The translations under genes were made by a program, and so were the position numbers. The notes beneath the pieces are model-generated. The model ran no database searches. It was not told the DNA's origin and was given only the letters and a program-made list of their open reading frames with translations. From assembly GCF_900447215.1 (NCBI RefSeq), contig NZ_UFYA01000001.1, positions 2,480,001 through 2,544,000 of the forward strand: 64,000 nt of DNA. Direction: 5' to 3'. Source of the stretch: Dermatophilus congolensis. Its GTDB lineage: Bacteria > Actinomycetota > Actinomycetes > Actinomycetales > Dermatophilaceae. Below, piece by piece: positions 1,410 to 59,369 of this stretch (position 1 is its first letter; every line of letters begins with the position of its first letter).

Positions 1410-1446
1410 CCTACCACCAAAAATCGCCTGTTAGCCTGGACACGAA

Positions 1447-1557
1447 TCCATCACGACCGGCTGAGGGACTGGACCGATGATGCCGGGGCAACCACGCCAA
1501 ACCCCTGCGCGCACGGTGCCACATCCTGCGGCCTTCACCCGAAAGCCGACAGATGGA
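1447..1557 (+). promoter_or_regulatory. SAM riboswitch (S-box clan) upstream of metB
   Basis: The core GAGGGACTGGACCGATGA, then GCCGGGGCAACC, then GGTGCCA-ATCCTGC and a GAAAG segment follow the SAM-I-clan order. The closing P1 stem is 1447-1452 with 1552-1557 (6 perfect pairs). It ends about 75 bases before the metB start and is expected to lower metB expression when S-adenosylmethionine is abundant. Whether it is SAM-I, SAM-IV or the intermediate class needs a covariance model. Confidence 0.88.
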
Positions 1558-1631
1558 CTCAACCGCGCACGAATGCGGACATGGATGTGGCCTCCTACGC
1601 ACAGAACACATCCATGAGAGGCCGCACGCAC

Positions 1632-13052: not shown

Positions 13053-13463
13053 TCAGGGTGTGTTGCGTGGGGAAGCGGTGCGCTGCAGCCAGCGCAGCAC
13101 AAGAATGGGCAGGATGAGAGGTAGGAGTAGGTATCCGATGCCGTAGTAAGACCAAACGGTGGCGCGAGGAAAGAGCTGGGGTTGGAGGATGCTCAGGGTG
13201 CCGATGATGAGCACGCCCGCTAGCTCGATGAGGCATATGGTGCGCAGCGCGGCGCGGGAGCCGGGGTGCCCCCAGCGCAGGAGAAGCACCAGCGCGATGA
13301 CGTAGATGGTGGCCGACAGTGCCGAGAGAGTGTAGGCCAATGGTGCTTGGGCGGCGTTAGTAGCTAGTTGGTAGACGGCGCGTGAGGTGGCGCCAACGGC
13401 AAAGACGCCATAGATGAGGGTGAAGAGGCGTCCGGGGCCGGAGGTGGTTTCGGTGGTGTTCAT
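13053..13463 (-). CDS. Small integral membrane protein (four helices)
   Basis: 136 residues with about four hydrophobic segments (12-30, 42-62, 75-92, 104-124) and basic ends. It resembles a class of actinobacterial membrane proteins of unknown function that sit beside other small membrane genes. Its start overlaps the stop of the upstream gene by one base (TGATG-type), so the two are a translation-coupled pair. No catalytic motif is visible. Confidence 0.8.
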   Translation of the reverse strand: MNTTETTSGPGRLFTLIYGVFAVGATSRAVYQLATNAAQAPLAYTLSALSATIYVIALVLLLRWGHPGSRAALRTICLIELAGVLIIGTLSILQPQLFPRATVWSYYGIGYLLLPLILPILVLRWLQRTASPRNTP

Positions 13464-22945: not shown

Positions 22946-22998
22946 GCCAAAAAAGGGGGGGGATCCATGGAATCCATGGATCCCCCCCCTTTTTTGGC
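22946..22998. terminator. Perfect 26-bp-arm terminator after glyQS
   Basis: Arms 22946-22971 and 22973-22998 are exact complements around one central base, with runs of 6 A, 8 G, 8 C and 6 T. It is unusually long and symmetrical. Confidence 0.92.
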
Positions 22999-27468: not shown

Positions 27469-27933
27469 CTACGCCTCACCAACCTCACCCACAACGTCCT
27501 CATCCACGATCGGCGCCGACTCCAATACCCGCCGTATCCAACTGACCATGAACCCGGTGAAACACACCGCCAAAAACACCAACAACACCGCATCTGACAC
27601 GGCACTCCACCCGGCCACATGCAACACCCCGCCACGCTCCACCACCGACAACTCATTCCCCTGCTGCGGAGCAAACAAACCCGGATCGTGAATCACCCGT
27701 ATCTGACCACCAGGCCACTGTGCCCGACACACCCCATCCACACACCCCACTGACCGTGCTGTCACAACATCATTGGCCGACAGCCACGACACCGCCGACC
27801 ACGACACCACCACCGCGCGCATCCACAACAGCGCCGTCAATAACGACACCACGAACAACATCACCACCGGCAATGCTCGAGACACACGAGCACCCAAAGA
27901 CCTGCGAGCAAGACGCAGACGGGACACAGACAT
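27469..27933 (-). CDS. Membrane protein with two helices and an external loop
   Basis: A 154-residue protein of unknown function. Helix 1 is about 20-42, helix 2 about 112-134. Between them lies an approximately 65-residue loop with two cysteines (VGCVDGVCRAQW) that could form a disulfide outside the cell, and the C-terminal tail is acidic. The layout resembles a group of DUF3592-like actinobacterial proteins, but I cannot confirm this. It is divergent from the CopD-CtaG gene, with 78 bases between. Confidence 0.7.
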   Translation of the reverse strand: MSVSRLRLARRSLGARVSRALPVVMLFVVSLLTALLWMRAVVVSWSAVSWLSANDVVTARSVGCVDGVCRAQWPGGQIRVIHDPGLFAPQQGNELSVVERGGVLHVAGWSAVSDAVLLVFLAVCFTGFMVSWIRRVLESAPIVDEDVVGEVGEA

Positions 27934-32847: not shown

Positions 32848-33996
32848 TTAGGGGTTGGTGGTGAAGCGGTGGGGTGTGAAGGCGGTGATGTCGGGTAGTG
32901 GGTGGGTGGTTGGTGGGGTGGTGATGGTGGCGGTGATGGCGGCGCCGATGGCGGGGGCTAGGAGGATGCCGTTGCGGCCTAGTCCGGTGGCTAGGGTGAT
33001 GGTGGTGCTGAGGGGGCCTAGGAGTGGGGCGTTGTCTTTGGTGACGGGGCGGGGTCTGGCGATGGTTTCGGTGATGGTGAATTCTTCGATGCAGGGGAGG
33101 AGGTGGATGCCGTCTCGTAGGAGTGTGTGGATGCCGCCGGCTTGGACGTGGGGGGTTTCGTTTTCTCGGGTGGTGGCGCCGAGGATGAGGTTTCCGTTGG
33201 TGCGGGGGACGATGTATATGGGGTTGCCTTTGACATGTCCGCGGATGATGTGGGTGAGGTTGTGGCGGAGGTTGGGTGGGGGTGTGAGGCGGATGACTTC
33301 GCCGTAGGCGTTGCGGATGAGGCTGGTGAGGTTCAGGGGTAGGCCGCTCAGGTTGGTGGCGTTGGTGGCGTTGGCGATGATGGCGTGGTCGGTGGGGATG
33401 GTGTGGCCGTTGGTGAGGGTGATGCCGGTGACGGGGCTGGTGGGGTCGGTGTTGTCGGTGTGGGTGATGCCGGTTGCTGGGGTGGGGTGGATGGGGATGT
33501 TTGCGTTGGTCAGGGCGGTTAGGAGTGCGTGGGCGAGGAGGCGGGGGTCGACTTGGTGGTCGTGGGGGGCGTGCAGGGCGCTGGAGATGGTGGGGGTGAG
33601 GAGGGGTTCGAGTTTGCGGGCTTGGCGGGTGGTGAGGGGTGTGAGGGTGAGGCCGAGGCTGTGTGCGTAGGTGGCGAGGTTGTGGAGGGTTTCTCGGTCG
33701 GCTGTGTCGGTGCCGATGTGGAGGGTGGGGGTGTTTTGGTGTCCGGTGGGTAGGTTTGTGGTGGTGGTGAGGCGGTGGATGAAGTGGGGGTAGAGGGCGG
33801 CGGAGGCGAGCATGAGGGGGGTGAGGTGGTGTTCGTTGTAGGTGGTTTCGCTGGTGGCTGCGAGCATGCCGGCGGCTGCGTGGGTGGCGCCGTTGGCTGG
33901 GGTTGGGTCGATGAGTTCGACGTGTGTGCCTGCTTCGTGCAGGTGCCATGCGATGGATAGTCCGATGATGCCGGCGCCGATGATGGCGATGCGCAC
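32848..33996 (-). CDS. thiO: Glycine oxidase
   Basis: A 382-residue FAD-dependent DAO-family oxidase giving dehydroglycine for thiazole synthesis. It has the FAD motif IIGAGIIGLSIAWHLHEAG at the N-terminus, GATHAAAGMLA, a middle domain with NATNATNLSGLPL and YIVPRTNGNLILGATTRE, and the C-terminal RPVTKDNAPLLG plus GLGRNGILLAP. The GTG 33996 start has GGGAGG 5 bases upstream. That ribosome site and the first base of the start codon fall in the closing stem of the TPP riboswitch, so control is probably at translation. It is the first gene of thiO-S-G-F. Confidence 0.95.
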   Translation of the reverse strand: MRIAIIGAGIIGLSIAWHLHEAGTHVELIDPTPANGATHAAAGMLAATSETTYNEHHLTPLMLASAALYPHFIHRLTTTTNLPTGHQNTPTLHIGTDTADRETLHNLATYAHSLGLTLTPLTTRQARKLEPLLTPTISSALHAPHDHQVDPRLLAHALLTALTNANIPIHPTPATGITHTDNTDPTSPVTGITLTNGHTIPTDHAIIANATNATNLSGLPLNLTSLIRNAYGEVIRLTPPPNLRHNLTHIIRGHVKGNPIYIVPRTNGNLILGATTRENETPHVQAGGIHTLLRDGIHLLPCIEEFTITETIARPRPVTKDNAPLLGPLSTTITLATGLGRNGILLAPAIGAAITATITTPPTTHPLPDITAFTPHRFTTNP

Positions 33997-34102
33997 AGCT
34001 TCCTCCCTTCGCCGGTGTTAACCGGACAGGTTCGAGCGGTCGGTGGGCGCTTTGGTTGCGTGCCACCCTCTCAGCCCGTTTGTGGGGCTCCCGCGGATGC
34101 TG
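33996..34102 (-). promoter_or_regulatory. TPP riboswitch of the thi operon
   Basis: Read on the minus strand it contains GGGAGCC, GGGCTGAGAGGG, GAACCTGT and CCGGCGAAGGGA in the standard THI-element order. Stem P1 can form between 34095-34102 and 33996-34003 (8 bp, one mismatch), and takes in part of the Shine-Dalgarno and the first base of the thiO GTG. TPP binding should therefore hide the ribosome site. Confidence 0.95.
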
Positions 34103-34107
34103 CGGTT

Positions 34108-50279: not shown

Positions 50280-50400
50280 CTCTGTGGACGGCAAGGTCGT
50301 GGTGTACTGTCTTTTGAGTTATTTGCGGGTTCGAGGGTTGGCTCTTGGCTGTGTTCAGGTAACGTTAGGTTTGTACGCCGCGACTGTTCGTTTCGGTGTT

Positions 50401-50487
50401 GGAGGGCTCGCATAGTGGCCTAGTGCGACGGTCTTGAAAACCGTTAGGGGTGCAAGCTCCTCGTGGGTTCGAATCCCACGCCCTCCG
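50401..50487 (+). tRNA. tRNA-Ser(TGA)
   Basis: 87 nt with a long variable arm. Acceptor GGAGGGC pairs with GCCCTCC; the anticodon loop CTTGAAA reads TGA; the T arm contains GGTTCGAATCC. CCA is not encoded. Confidence 0.96.
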
Positions 50488-50528
50488 CGTAGTTCCGCAC
50501 GTGTTTCGTGTGAGCAAGGTGTGAGTGC

Positions 50529-50581
50529 AAGAGAGCGTCAGTTTCCTGTGAGAGGGGGCTGGTGCTCTCTTTCCTGAGGGC
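50529..50581 (+). terminator. Possible terminator after tRNA-Ser(TGA)
   Basis: Arms 50529-50536 and 50574-50581 are exact (8 bp) around a large loop. Moderate support only. Confidence 0.4.
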
Positions 50582-50656
50582 CCGCTGTGGGGGAATGCGT
50601 GGTGCTGTGCCCTGCGGGGCTGTGGATGCTCACAGGAGTGGCACAAAAGCAAAAAA

Positions 50657-55270: not shown

Positions 55271-55346
55271 GCACCCGTAGCTCAACGGATAGAGCATCTG
55301 ACTACGGATCAGAAGGTTTGGGGTTCGAATCCCTACGGGTGCGCCA
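55271..55346 (+). tRNA. tRNA-Arg(ACG), CCA encoded
   Basis: 76 nt including CCA. Acceptor GCACCCG pairs with CGGGTGC; the anticodon loop CTACGGA reads ACG, whose first A is normally edited to inosine by TadA, also encoded in this window; the T arm contains GGTTCGAATCC. Confidence 0.96.
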
Positions 55347-55353
55347 CAGTAAG

Positions 55354-55380
55354 TCGGAACCGATCATCGGTTCCGATTTT
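55354..55380 (+). terminator. Terminator after tRNA-Arg
   Basis: Perfect 11-bp arms 55354-55364 and 55366-55376, then a T run. Confidence 0.9.
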
Positions 55381-55444
55381 TTGTTTTGTGCTCCTGCCTG
55401 CCAATCGTTGTGTAGCGACAAGTCGAGAAAATACAGGCGCGCAT

Positions 55445-55482
55445 TGAGGGGGATGGGCCGTATCAACGGCCCATCCCCCTCA
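55445..55482 (-). terminator. Terminator of the amidase gene
   Basis: Perfect 17-bp arms 55445-55461 and 55466-55482, about 35 bases past the amidase stop. Confidence 0.88.
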
Positions 55483-55516
55483 AAATAATTACTCGCTAGC
55501 TTATTCCTGGCGCGGA

Positions 55517-56767
55517 TTAGCGCGGGGAGTAGAAGAAGACCTCAGCATTCGGGTCGTGACGCATGATTGCGTTGAGCGGCTGGTTCAGCTTGTCAGCAGA
55601 GTGGTAGGTCACCAACAACCCGAAGGCAGTAACACCGGTCACCACAGCGCTGTGGCTAATGCGGTTGTTCTTCGACCACTTGAACTGCACGATGTCGCCA
55701 ACCTTGGCGTTTGCCGGATCACGGAACATCACAGCCCGATCCGGGTTAGCGCGCATGAAGTCACCCAACTTCGAGGCGTTAATCCAGCTCAAGCTTGTCT
55801 TCACCGACTGGGGGCTTGGGTTCTGAGCGCCACCCTTGAAGTACCAGGCCTTATCGCTGTTAAACGCACCCGGAATGTTCGACCATCCACCGGCATTCAA
55901 AACCTGCGATACAAAGTTGGTGCAGTCAACGTTACGCCACGTCGGGTACTGCTTCTTGTTGTGGAAGTACACGTGCTTCCAGGCATACGCGACCGCTTTC
56001 TTACGGTCGTAGACACTGCTCGTCTCACCAGGCTTGTCTCCAGGTTTTTCGCCTGGTTTTTCACCTGGCTTTTGGCCATCGTTGCCAGGCTTGCCCGGCT
56101 TATTTCCTGGGGTTTTATCTGCCCGACCCGGAATCTTAGCTAGCTTGGCAACAATCTCAGGAGAGTCAGGCTTGCCTTTGAACTTCTTCGCAGTGCCAGC
56201 GGGCTTAGAAGGAAGCTGCCCCAGCACATCGGCTGCTGCAGGGCCAGCCATCTGGCGCTGCTCTGGGGTCATGTTGTCAATTTCTTTTGACCCCTCCAGC
56301 TGCCATGTGCCGTTCACTCGCTTAAACGTGTAGCAACGCTGACGAGATTCCGATGCGTAATCACCCACACCCTGGTTGGGGTTACGCAGCTTCAAACGCG
56401 TGGTGTCTGTGGTGTTCACGGTGGCCGTGTCACCGTTGGTCTTGATTTCATCGACCTTCACGTCCACCGTGCTGCGGTCGAACATCTTGTCGCTGTCAGT
56501 GTTCTGCTTCAGCTGACCAATTTCGTTCTTATCTTGGTTGAGGCTCTTCAAAGCCTCCTGCGAGTACCGGTTCGTCGGTAGAGCCTGCTGTGATTTCTGT
56601 TCCGCGGTGGCGGTAGCCGTTCGGTTTTCCTGATAATTCCTAATCACAGATACGGCGAGCTCAGCGGTGAGGTTTTCACCCTGATTAGTTGACGCATGCC
56701 CGGCTGATGCCGGCAAGGCGGCGAGAAGAAGTGCTCCGGCTGCTGTCGCTGCAATGGTTCGACGCAC
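55517..56767 (-). CDS. Secreted amidase-domain (Amidase_6) protein
   Basis: A 416-residue exported protein with a signal peptide (1-25), then a region of about 155 residues with an SnoaL/NTF2-like feel (VDVKVDEIKTNGDTATVNTTDTTRLKL, WQLEGSKEI), then a Lys/Pro/Gly linker with KPGEKPGEKPGDKPG repeats (about 220-248). The C-terminal domain (about 252-416) is Amidase_6 with candidate Cys282 in NVDCTNFVSQVL and His372 in RISHSAVVTG. The target is probably cell-wall peptides. GTG 56767 has GGAG 5 bases upstream; an overlapping ATG is out of frame. Confidence 0.88.
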   Translation of the reverse strand: MRRTIAATAAGALLLAALPASAGHASTNQGENLTAELAVSVIRNYQENRTATATAEQKSQQALPTNRYSQEALKSLNQDKNEIGQLKQNTDSDKMFDRSTVDVKVDEIKTNGDTATVNTTDTTRLKLRNPNQGVGDYASESRQRCYTFKRVNGTWQLEGSKEIDNMTPEQRQMAGPAAADVLGQLPSKPAGTAKKFKGKPDSPEIVAKLAKIPGRADKTPGNKPGKPGNDGQKPGEKPGEKPGDKPGETSSVYDRKKAVAYAWKHVYFHNKKQYPTWRNVDCTNFVSQVLNAGGWSNIPGAFNSDKAWYFKGGAQNPSPQSVKTSLSWINASKLGDFMRANPDRAVMFRDPANAKVGDIVQFKWSKNNRISHSAVVTGVTAFGLLVTYHSADKLNQPLNAIMRHDPNAEVFFYSPR

Positions 56768-57468
56768 ATGTACTCCTACGAGGATATGTGAGGTGTATGC
56801 CCTCCCCGATCGGGTGGCATGAGGGTCCCAGGCGGTCTTCAACATCCCCCCAACTCCCTTTCAAGCCGGAACATTACGCCGCAGCACAGGAAAGCCCAGG
56901 GCCCCACATGTGGGTGCTTTTCTCAAGCGTTTCAACCAAACACAAAACCCGGCATCTGAGTTGTTATTGCAGTTGAGAAGCTGTTTGCAGCCTCAAATAA
57001 GGTCTTGGCAAACTGCGTATATTCGTAATCCGGTACTGAGATCACCCATATATGTGGGTTACGTGGTACCCACCCGGTGATATGTCACTCAGGTAGCACT
57101 CATGAAAAGTGCAGATTTCAGGCGTTACTCATTCACCGAAAACCCGACTACCTGAATCAGTGCAAAGTGCTTTCCATCCCAAGGAAAAAGCACAGCAGTA
57201 ACAAACCGCCCCTCACGCATCCGCCTCTGGCCGAAAACCCAGGTCTCCAGCCAAGCTAACCGCGCGACCGGCTTAAACTAGTTTCTCTGGGAAAAGCTGC
57301 AGCACAAGCAGATTCATGCATATACCCATCGCCTTGACTGCTTCCCACCAACCCAACTTTTACGCCTGAGGTGGGGCCACGCCAACCCGGTGGCCCCACC
57401 TCAGGCGTACCTCCTTCACACCGCCGGACCCCTTGCCTAACTCAACGCTCACATCACAGAGGAACACC
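56768..57468 (+). other. Long non-coding interval with structured leader candidate
   Basis: 701 bases with no credible gene between the divergent amidase and GH16 genes. On the plus strand several pairings occur in series: 57089-57096 with 57148-57155 (8 bp perfect) enclosing a GCACT/AGTGC hairpin; 57167-57175 with 57182-57192 (bulged); and the decamer CCGAAAACCC twice (about 57136 and 57232). The segment AGCTAACC near 57254 matches one element of c-di-AMP (ydaO) riboswitches, but the other ydaO elements are not recognisable. A strong hairpin follows at 57361. Confidence 0.5.
57361..57409 (+). terminator. 20-bp perfect hairpin in the GH16 leader
   Basis: Arms 57361-57380 and 57390-57409 are exact complements, 9-nt loop. 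No protein gene ends before it on the plus strand, and the GH16 start is 60 bases downstream, so it could be an attenuator or the end of a non-coding RNA. Confidence 0.7.
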
Positions 57469-58713
57469 ATGAGCTACAAACGACACATCACCCGACGCAC
57501 CCTCATCGCCGGAGCCGTGACCCTCGGAGCCAGCCTCACCGGAATAAGCACCGCCACAGCCAACCCACCCAAACCCAGCACCCCAACAAGCCCCCCTCCC
57601 ACCGTACAAATCGGCCCAGAGTGGACACTCATCCCCGCCCTGAGCGATAACTTCGCAAACTCCTCCAGCTCCAGCCGCTGGAAACGCGGCCTGTGGTACC
57701 CCACCTCCAAAGCCGGTACCTTCAACGACAACAACGTCACCTTCGCCAACGGCGCCCTACAGCTGAGCGCTAAACGCGAAGGAAATAGCTACTCCTTCGG
57801 CGCCGTTGAATCCACCTTCGACCTACCCGGCATATGCACACTCGTTGAATTCCGGGCCCGCGCACTCGACCGCCGCGCCAACGTCCTATCCGCAATCTGG
57901 CTCCAATCCTCCAACCACGACCACGTCGACCGCCTCCTCACCGGCGCCGACCCCCACCCCGAAATCGACATCATGGAGACCTTCTCCTTCTCCCAAATGA
58001 ACATGGCCACCCATACGTGGGCATCCACCGGACACATCGCCCACGGAGGAAAAAACTACGAAACAGGCCTGCCCGACATCAGCGCCGCTTACCACACCTA
58101 CGGACTCGAACGCCGCGACGGCAAACTCCGGTTCTACTTCGACCGCAAACTCGCCTGGGAAACCCCAGCACCCCACCCCTCCATGGCGCGCATGTCTCGC
58201 CACGCAGTGCTCAGCCTCGAAGGGCACCTTGGCGCCCCCAACCCTCAATTCCTCCCCGCAGCCTTCCACATCGACTACCTGCGCACCTACTACCACACCG
58301 CTACCACCCGACCTGACCCAGGAAAATACCGAATCGTCAACGCAGCCAACGGCAACGGCCTGACCGTCAAAAACGGCGCCCTCACCGACGTAGCAGGCGC
58401 AAAAGACACCTTCACCATCGAACGTCTAGAAGACTTCACCTACCACATCCGCCACACCGACAGCGCAACTATGCTCACCCTCCACGACGGCCGAGGACAG
58501 ATCGGTGTGCCCGTAGATGCCACCACATACGCCCCCACCACCGTCGACTCCGCTGGAAGCTGGCGCCGCTGGCACATCCACTCCACACCCGGGGGGACCT
58601 ACAGCATCTGCTCCCGATTCAGCGGACTCGCCCTGGCCAACACAAACGGACGCCTCACCCAACAAGAACCAGCCAACGAAAAAAACCAGCACTGGAAACT
58701 CGAACGCGCCTAA
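57469..58713 (+). CDS. GH16 glycoside hydrolase with C-terminal trefoil-like domain
   Basis: A 414-residue Tat-exported enzyme (ITRRTLIAGA signal). The GH16 domain (about 50-285) has the catalytic E-I-D-I-M-E motif at 165-170 (Glu165 nucleophile, Glu170 acid/base), FGAVESTFDLPG and a YHTYGLERRDGKLRFYFD strand. The E-x-D-x-x-E spacing is that of laminarinases and agarases. The remaining about 120 residues repeat a YRIVNAANGNGLTV / YHIRHTDSATMLTLHD / YSICSRFSGLALAN pattern ending in NQHWKLE, like a ricin-type carbohydrate-binding trefoil. GAGGA precedes ATG 57469. Confidence 0.88.
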   Translation: MSYKRHITRRTLIAGAVTLGASLTGISTATANPPKPSTPTSPPPTVQIGPEWTLIPALSDNFANSSSSSRWKRGLWYPTSKAGTFNDNNVTFANGALQLSAKREGNSYSFGAVESTFDLPGICTLVEFRARALDRRANVLSAIWLQSSNHDHVDRLLTGADPHPEIDIMETFSFSQMNMATHTWASTGHIAHGGKNYETGLPDISAAYHTYGLERRDGKLRFYFDRKLAWETPAPHPSMARMSRHAVLSLEGHLGAPNPQFLPAAFHIDYLRTYYHTATTRPDPGKYRIVNAANGNGLTVKNGALTDVAGAKDTFTIERLEDFTYHIRHTDSATMLTLHDGRGQIGVPVDATTYAPTTVDSAGSWRRWHIHSTPGGTYSICSRFSGLALANTNGRLTQQEPANEKNQHWKLERA

Positions 58714-58832
58714 GCACCTTTTATTGCGGCGCCGATCCTGCCTCATCACGATCGGCGCCCCCACAAGCAATCCGACGCGCCCTGTCGGCAACACAACAAT
58801 GCGTTACGCCCTGCGCGCCCTACCCTGAATAC

Positions 58833-59369
58833 ATGAGCGACCTCACCGGCATGACCATCGCCATCAACGCAGGCGATACAAGCGAGGTACTCGACTTCTA
58901 CACGCGCGTATTCGGACGTGGCCCCGACACCGCCCCCATGGATGACTTCCTCGAATGGCAAATCAGCCCTGGAACCTGGCTACAACTCTCCACCGGCCAC
59001 GACCGCCCCGGAGCCAACAACGCCCGCGTCCGCCTCGAAGTAGCCGACGTTGAAGCAGCAGCCGAACGCATGCGTACCGCCGAAGTACCCATCGGTGATG
59101 TCGTCACCGTGCCCGACGTCGTCGCATTCGCAAACTTCTCCGACTACTGGGGAAACGCCCTCGGCTTCTACCAACTCCTCACCCCCAGAAGAATCCTCAC
59201 CCCCGAAGAACGCGCGGAACAAGAACGCGAACACGAACAACGCCTCGCCGCCCGCAACGCCGAAGAAGAAACCCCACCCAACCTCAACACAGACGAACGC
59301 CTCCCCAGCGTTCCTGACGATGGTTCAGTCATCGGCAAAACAGGACCCACCCCCGGGCGCCTCGAATAA
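58833..59369 (+). CDS. VOC-superfamily (glyoxalase-like) protein
   Basis: 178 residues. The first 120 form a VOC fold: MTIAINAGDTSEVLDFYTRVFGRG, WLQLSTG, ARVRLEVADVEAAAERMRTAEVPI and FSDYWGNALGFYQLL. Metal ligands are not all evident and the reaction is unknown. The last 50 residues are a charged, Glu-rich tail (EERAEQEREHEQRLAARNAEEE), perhaps a short coiled coil, not usual in the family. ATG 58833 looks leaderless (TACCCT-like box upstream). Confidence 0.85.
   Translation: MSDLTGMTIAINAGDTSEVLDFYTRVFGRGPDTAPMDDFLEWQISPGTWLQLSTGHDRPGANNARVRLEVADVEAAAERMRTAEVPIGDVVTVPDVVAFANFSDYWGNALGFYQLLTPRRILTPEERAEQEREHEQRLAARNAEEETPPNLNTDERLPSVPDDGSVIGKTGPTPGRLE

Follow-up and report, generated by a model that had tools for sequence, protein, structure and literature searches.

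The region considered here belongs to a stretch of Dermatophilus congolensis DNA of 64,000 nucleotides (hereinafter, the window; G+C content 59.4%) and harbors the following features:

56768–57468, no strand assigned: intergenic gap of about 700 nt, with divergent genes on both sides.
57469–58713, plus strand: GH16 glycoside hydrolase with a C-terminal ricin-type lectin domain (414 aa; Pfam PF00722, E 1.8e-6; PF14200, E 2.8e-11).
55517–56767, minus strand: divergent Amidase_6 gene (Pfam PF12671, E 5.5e-28, obtained with a longer frame reaching 56845).
57361–57409, plus strand: perfect 20-bp inverted repeat with a 9-nt loop (arms 57361–57380 and 57390–57409), a terminator-type stem-loop.

The gene-free stretch of about 700 bases described in the original prediction was borne out; it runs from the GTG of the amidase gene at 56767, a start that we picked from its ribosome-binding site, to the ATG at 57469, which is the start codon of GH16. 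The GH16 protein presumably carries a signal sequence with RR, according to our reading by eye; the Amidase_6 protein has a signal-like N-terminus and is probably a peptidoglycan hydrolase.

The GC skew shows several sharp sign flips in the window, and several genes between about 53 and 61 kb have coding strands rich in C and poor in G. A replication terminus at the locus was considered and rejected, the sign change near 56 kb being one of several in the window. The same holds for a dif site: the search with a dif-like core sequence gave 20 matches versus 13.6 expected, with as many in 9 of 100 shuffles, i.e., no clear enrichment.

The hairpin lies exactly at the coordinates previously given for it (57361–57409), and 59 nt separate its end from the GH16 ATG. 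It is real and far beyond chance, the longest perfect stem among 500 dinucleotide shuffles of 56990–57468 being of 11 bp versus the 20 bp observed. In the fold scan, the two 100-nt segments containing the entire hairpin had plus-strand z values of −6.6 and −7.5 and minus-strand values of −4.8 and −4.8; all the remaining segments of the gap, on either strand, had z no lower than −2.4, and the segment at −2.4 overlaps the hairpin. Considered as an intrinsic (Rho-independent) terminator, 57361–57409 possesses the stable G+C-rich hairpin and lacks the U-tract, since the first 8 nt past the stem contain 3 T on the plus strand and 2 on the minus strand. A consensus scan of 56700–57520 did not list it as a terminator (the loop limit of 8 used in the scan excludes a 9-nt loop), and the sole terminator-like site retrieved is at chance level. 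The same scan of 56700–57520 found no sigma-70-like promoter, although one may still be there; therefore, the transcript start of an RNA ended by the hairpin is only presumed. Searching the genome with E values up to 1 gave no second copy of the hairpin sequence, which led us to discard a repeat family or mobile element, and the only other match in the window, at 3 mismatches, is 13379–13396.

Perfect hairpins with a stem of at least 14 bp and a loop of 3–20 nt were surveyed in 464 kb of this genome, made up of the window and 20 further stretches of 20 kb each. Such hairpins are frequent here, 44 being present in the 464 kb, and stems exceeding 20 bp occur in the window (22946–22998, 25 bp) and in stretches L032 (19678–19739, 29 bp) and L047 (5053–5107, 26 bp). 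Thirty-seven of the 44 sit, in the correct orientation, behind a 3' end, whether of a called gene, of a tRNA or of an ORF with a minimum length of 100 aa, a count in which some of the ORFs are spurious. Such ends were accepted if they overlapped the hairpin by up to 15 nt or preceded it by up to 60 nt, and those observed lie between an overlap of 4 nt and a distance of 44 nt. With called genes alone, 26 of the 44 hairpins are at gene ends, versus 5.8% of 5000 random positions. These counts are based on the first gene caller together with ORFs and tRNAs; the second caller, which lost genes at each round, was excluded. A 38th hairpin lies behind a small ORF that, read by eye, we take to be rpmE. 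The six remaining without a gene end include 57361–57409, and for two of them the fetched stretch ends no more than 400 nt away, which leaves their neighbours partly unseen.

Of 53 gene-end sides, 7 have at least 5 T among the first 8 nt past the stem and 40 have at most 3 T; hence, the poor U-tract of 57361–57409 is normal for the class of hairpins harbored by this genome. Since 37 of 44 similar hairpins are at gene ends, mostly without a U-tract, 57361–57409 has the form of a terminator in an unusual place, that is, it is an orphan of terminator form between the divergent amidase and GH16 genes. The original prediction that no plus-strand gene ends before it proved correct, in that the 60 nt upstream contain no 3' end of a called gene, a tRNA or an ORF of 100 aa or longer, and the small G000 ORFs that end there do not look coding; the hairpin thus shares the form of the gene-end class and not its position.

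The conservation of these stems was analysed in a relative, referred to as G001 (the genome of the window being G000). Orthologs in the fetched G001 stretches were available for 24 of the 44 hairpins, 57361–57409 included, and the other 20 were dropped. Out of 432 pairs of the class, 392 are unchanged, 9 are double-changed and kept, 5 are kept after a one-sided change, and 26 are broken or gapped in G001, so that the stems are under no absolute constraint. The double changes keep the pair in 9 of 9 cases in the true register, versus 0–2 in six slid registers; double changes may also come from template switching inside palindromes. We infer that the gene-end class terminates transcription. As for 57361–57409 itself, 20 of 20 pairs are unchanged in G001, with one change in the loop, and the 250 nt flanking it on either side diverge by 6.8%; the absence of changes in 40 stem bases is weak evidence, coming from the only two of the genomes searched that carry the region.

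The smaller repeats of the gap, on which the idea of a structured leader was partly founded, do exist, but they do not rise above chance. A perfect stem of at least 8 bp with arms at most 60 nt apart, such as the 8-bp inverted repeat 57089–57096/57148–57155, occurs in 81 of 500 shuffles of 56990–57356. The stem at 57167–57175 has its partner at 57183–57193, one base off the position formerly assigned to it; this pairing, which is our own reading of the sequence, has a 2-nt bulge and a 7-bp outer core, and the core is at chance level. The decamer present twice (57136 and 57231) has its first copy altered in G001, and a repeated 10-mer is found in 62 of 500 shuffles of 56990–57468.

Probing 56500–57700 with the Rfam covariance models on both strands (E up to 5) retrieved 7 matches, none reaching the family cut-off and none credible (five microRNA precursors and two eukaryotic cis-regulatory families), and the orthologous G001 locus gave nothing at E up to 1. 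The c-di-AMP riboswitch (ydaO/yuaA) often lies ahead of cell-wall hydrolase genes in actinobacteria; the resemblance to this class that had been suggested for one 8-base element of the leader was not confirmed, the GH16 leader being absent from the matches to its covariance model on either strand in G000 (E up to 5) and at the G001 locus (E up to 1). As a control, the same models recovered in the window, at gathering scores, four tRNAs and two riboswitches:

1445–1559, plus strand: SAM riboswitch, above the Rfam gathering score, with an aptamer identical in G001.
33987–34104, minus strand: TPP riboswitch, above the Rfam gathering score, with an aptamer identical in G001.

The leader sequence is no riboswitch of any Rfam class.

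Concerning its distribution, the whole region was found in G000 and G001 only, with 95% identity, among the 38 genomes searched; any other match in these genomes covers at most 45 nt, apart from the hairpin against its own opposite strand. Two further scans of genome contigs, which may omit the genome itself and very near ones, retrieved no relatives of the region, and a covariance model of 57028–57200 matched 2 of 58 genomes (G000 and G001), at one place each. Counting the genome itself, three of 97 relatives have GH16 (E 1e-10) and four have the amidase (E 1e-20); at E 1e-40, GH16 was retrieved from 1 of 394 in the taxonomic class, i.e., from the genome itself. Another genome with a GH16 relative (G055) has no perfect stem of at least 10 bp in the 4.5 kb around the gene. 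The amidase–gap–GH16 segment corresponds to 55346–58833 of the window and adjoins tRNA-Arg. In G002, which belongs to the same genus, tRNA-Arg is followed 0.9 kb later, on a single contig, by the glyoxalase-like gene that comes after GH16 in the window; the 0.9 kb between the two contains another ORF, with neither amidase nor GH16 and no gap. The segment therefore represents either a gain in the G000/G001 lineage or a loss outside of it. Direct repeats of at least 16 nt bracketing the segment were not found, and a phage origin of GH16 was rejected, since no relative was found among viral contigs. Within the gap, the G000 and G001 sequences diverge unevenly, with a variable stretch (16%) lying between two conserved blocks (2–4%):

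57201–57286, plus strand: variable block, with 14 differences in 86 nt, a single-base gap among them.
57287–57410, plus strand: conserved block holding the hairpin, with 3 differences in 124 nt.

The alignment of the two genomes was also used to look for a structured RNA in the leader, by comparing the damage to the joint fold caused by the actual G000/G001 substitutions with that of the same substitutions placed at random. For 56960–57310, z was −3.04 on the plus strand (1 of 200) and −0.19 on the minus strand; repeating the plus-strand test gave −3.12 (1 of 600) and, with the local density kept, −3.13 (0 of 600). Including the hairpin (56960–57420) gave −3.49 on the plus strand (0 of 200). 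The other plus-strand values were −2.92 for 56846–57360, −2.14 for 57180–57360, −2.01 for 56990–57360, and −0.73 for 57020–57200, and the minus-strand values for all six intervals ranged from −0.57 to 0.36. The boundaries of the intervals with z of about −3 were picked after the fold had been seen.

The test was calibrated on the 38 of 128 candidate intervals having an alignable ortholog, 10–32 substitutions and no more than 6 columns with gaps. The resulting 76 values, one per interval and strand and with one interval in the leader region, had a mean of −0.23 and a standard deviation of 1.17; three reached −2 (56983–57332 plus, placed automatically, −2.04; 27537–27886 minus, −2.61; 50294–50643 plus, −2.62) and none reached −3. 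The second of these is an intergenic interval in which the substitutions spare the minus-strand fold also with z −2.5. The third contains tRNA-Ser, but this tRNA alone, with one change, has z 0.23 and so does not explain the −2.62. Scored on their true strand, the tRNA controls gave −2.01 (43985), −2.85 (54850), −1.33 (55240), and 0.23 (50380), and the SAM and TPP intervals, with few changes to score, gave −0.55 and −0.83. The sensitivity of the test is uneven, as two of the four tRNAs reach −2 and the SAM and TPP intervals do not.

The main contributor to the plus-strand z is a long helix closing the following candidate:

56967–57302, plus strand: candidate structured domain closed by the long-range helix 56967–56992/57270–57302, based on two genomes and with boundaries defined post hoc.

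From G000 to G001, three pairs of this helix are kept, one by a double change (56976–57286, A-U to G-C) and two by one-sided changes (56978–57284, A-U to G-U; 56980–57282, G-U to G-C). The probabilities of its parts within 56960–57310 are 0.90–0.99 in G000 and 0.51–0.94 in G001, and they are at most 0.13 if the RNA starts at 56900. The search for compensatory changes thus yielded pair-keeping substitutions and a z of about −3, but from two genomes and within boundaries chosen post hoc; the signal is thin and strand-specific, and it is suggestive of a plus-strand structure in the leader. A protein-coding leader was discarded: the small ORFs of the gap show no coding-like conservation between G000 and G001, differing by frame, stops or amino acid changes, and the two that were scanned have no Pfam match at E up to 1.

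A further element of the leader is a partial repetition of the hairpin:

57118–57136, plus strand: near copy (16/19) of the end of the hairpin 3' arm and its downstream flank, which could pair with 57362–57369 in the 5' arm.
57401–57419, plus strand: second copy of the same motif, made up of the 3'-arm end and the 10 nt beyond it.

The motif occurs at these two sites only in G000 (up to 2 mismatches), and a similarity of 57118–57136 to the arm as high as this was equalled by 1 of 300 shuffled leaders. Segment 57118–57125 is complementary to 57362–57369; as for the energy of the duplex between leader and 5' arm, 66 of 500 shuffled leaders are as good. In transcripts ending at 57381, the predicted probability of the antitermination pairing is 0.32 for a start at 57000 and 0.29 for a start at 57030; with the start moved to 56960, 57080 or 57100 it is about 0, and it falls to zero when the 3' arm is present. 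For 57030–57381, the forced antiterminator fold has −95.4 kcal/mol versus −96.2 for the free fold, and with a start at 57080 the free fold is favoured by 4.5 kcal/mol. These folding models make an attenuator switch before GH16 possible; the extension of the repeat past the hairpin arm goes unexplained by antitermination.

According to these data, 57361–57409 is most likely a plus-strand transcription terminator that would limit transcription into GH16, a reading to which we assign about an even chance. The original prediction that transcription ends before GH16 is upheld in part: the terminator-like form and the pairing kept in the class (9 of 9 double changes) speak for it, but there is no U-tract, and the consensus scan found no promoter. 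RNA polymerase would start somewhere in 56960–57350, or leak in from farther upstream, and would be halted or slowed at 57361–57409 ahead of GH16, which might then be expressed only via read-through or when conditions relieve the block; the upstream leader may, though the indication is weak, offer an alternative pairing through the 57118–57136 copy of the 3' arm. Since no gene was found ending before the terminator-like hairpin, the natural candidate for what it would end is a plus-strand leader or an independent RNA. The latter, also contemplated in the original prediction, would be a structured ncRNA of about 350–450 nt on the plus strand (56960–57410) ending at the hairpin, with GH16 having its own start or being reached by read-through. 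The plus-strand fold spared by substitutions in 56960–57310 (z of about −3 in the two genomes, versus about 0 on the minus strand), the −3.49 of 56960–57420 against calibration values none of which reached −3, and the three pair-keeping changes of the long helix argue for it; yet, the boundaries are post hoc, the values fall to −2.01 for 56990–57360, −2.04 for 56983–57332 and −0.73 for 57020–57200, the long helix nearly vanishes with a start at 56900, the test is unevenly sensitive, and the region has no promoter by consensus scan and no relative beyond G000 and G001. We therefore consider such an RNA rather unlikely, albeit worth keeping in mind. More doubtful is a combined scenario in which a lineage-specific plus-strand RNA of about 350–450 nt (56960–57410), built on the long-range helix, would gate the read-through of its own hairpin into the lineage-specific GH16-lectin gene, with the 57118–57136 copy as antiterminator.

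The hairpin might also be no terminator at all and act as a stabiliser of the mRNA 5' end or as a DNA-level element, i.e., an operator or insulator overlapping the GH16 promoter. Its position 59 nt ahead of the GH16 start codon, and a TTGACT −35-like hexamer seen by eye at 57334–57339, which would have transcription start close to the 5' arm or inside it, are consistent with this; however, no consensus promoter was found, hairpins of the same form are mostly at 3' ends (37/44), and the lack of a second genomic copy gives no sign of an operator family, so that this function appears unlikely. That the hairpin is the relic terminator of a former plus-strand gene, lost or decayed in the gap, is in our opinion quite improbable. 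In G001, a 75-aa open frame ends 23 nt before the hairpin (in G000 it is broken by stops and a one-base difference), and the amidase–gap–GH16 segment is lineage-specific; but the 19 base differences of the frame fall 6/5/8 on codon positions 1/2/3, with no clear coding signature, the frame has no Pfam match at E up to 1, and the block with the hairpin is better conserved (3/124) than 57201–57286 inside the frame (14/86). Lastly, the ligand-sensing leader of the original prediction, which would amount to a new riboswitch class regulating GH16 through termination, was not supported by the analysis and appears highly improbable. The location before a gene, the terminator-type hairpin and the alternative pairings of similar energy until the 3' arm is made (−95.4 vs. 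−96.2 kcal/mol) would fit it. Against it are the absence of a credible Rfam match, stems at chance level and an arm pairing matched by 66 of 500 shuffles, the antiterminator fold worsened by a start at 57080, and the failure to find the leader ahead of any other gene in the searched genomes, the covariance model matching 2 of 58. Moreover, the SAM and TPP aptamers have 0 changes in 115 and 118 nt between G000 and G001, whereas the leader has 6 in 173 (96.5% identity) and 21 in 351, which argues against a riboswitch.

Interpreted as a terminator, 57361–57409 resembles the intrinsic terminators without a strong U-tract, having a strong G+C-rich stem-loop and a poor U-tract; unlike these, it lies between divergent genes and ahead of a start codon, with no gene found ending before it. 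In 13 bacterial genomes, poly A/U patterns are reported to be seldom co-located with hairpins that were identified or supported by RNA-seq (PMC8355165). A comparison can also be drawn with the attenuator (RNA switch) of Mycobacterium tuberculosis rpfB (PMC6009663): in both cases a leader with a hairpin of terminator type precedes the gene for a secreted cell-wall hydrolase in an actinobacterium, is restricted to a subset of species, and has predicted alternative folds. For rpfB, unlike the GH16 leader, a poly-U tract, promoters, a Northern blot and 3' RACE ends are described (PMC6009663). A literature search for Dermatophilus small RNAs returned no paper.

If the hairpin ends transcription, premature termination would hold back a secreted polysaccharide-cutting enzyme, in a way comparable in principle to the rpfB attenuator; if it is merely an insulator or a relic, it would be ordinary. 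The survey, in turn, suggests that many terminators of this genome may be recognisable by the perfection of their stem alone, with or without a U-tract, and that their pairing is largely kept between the two species.
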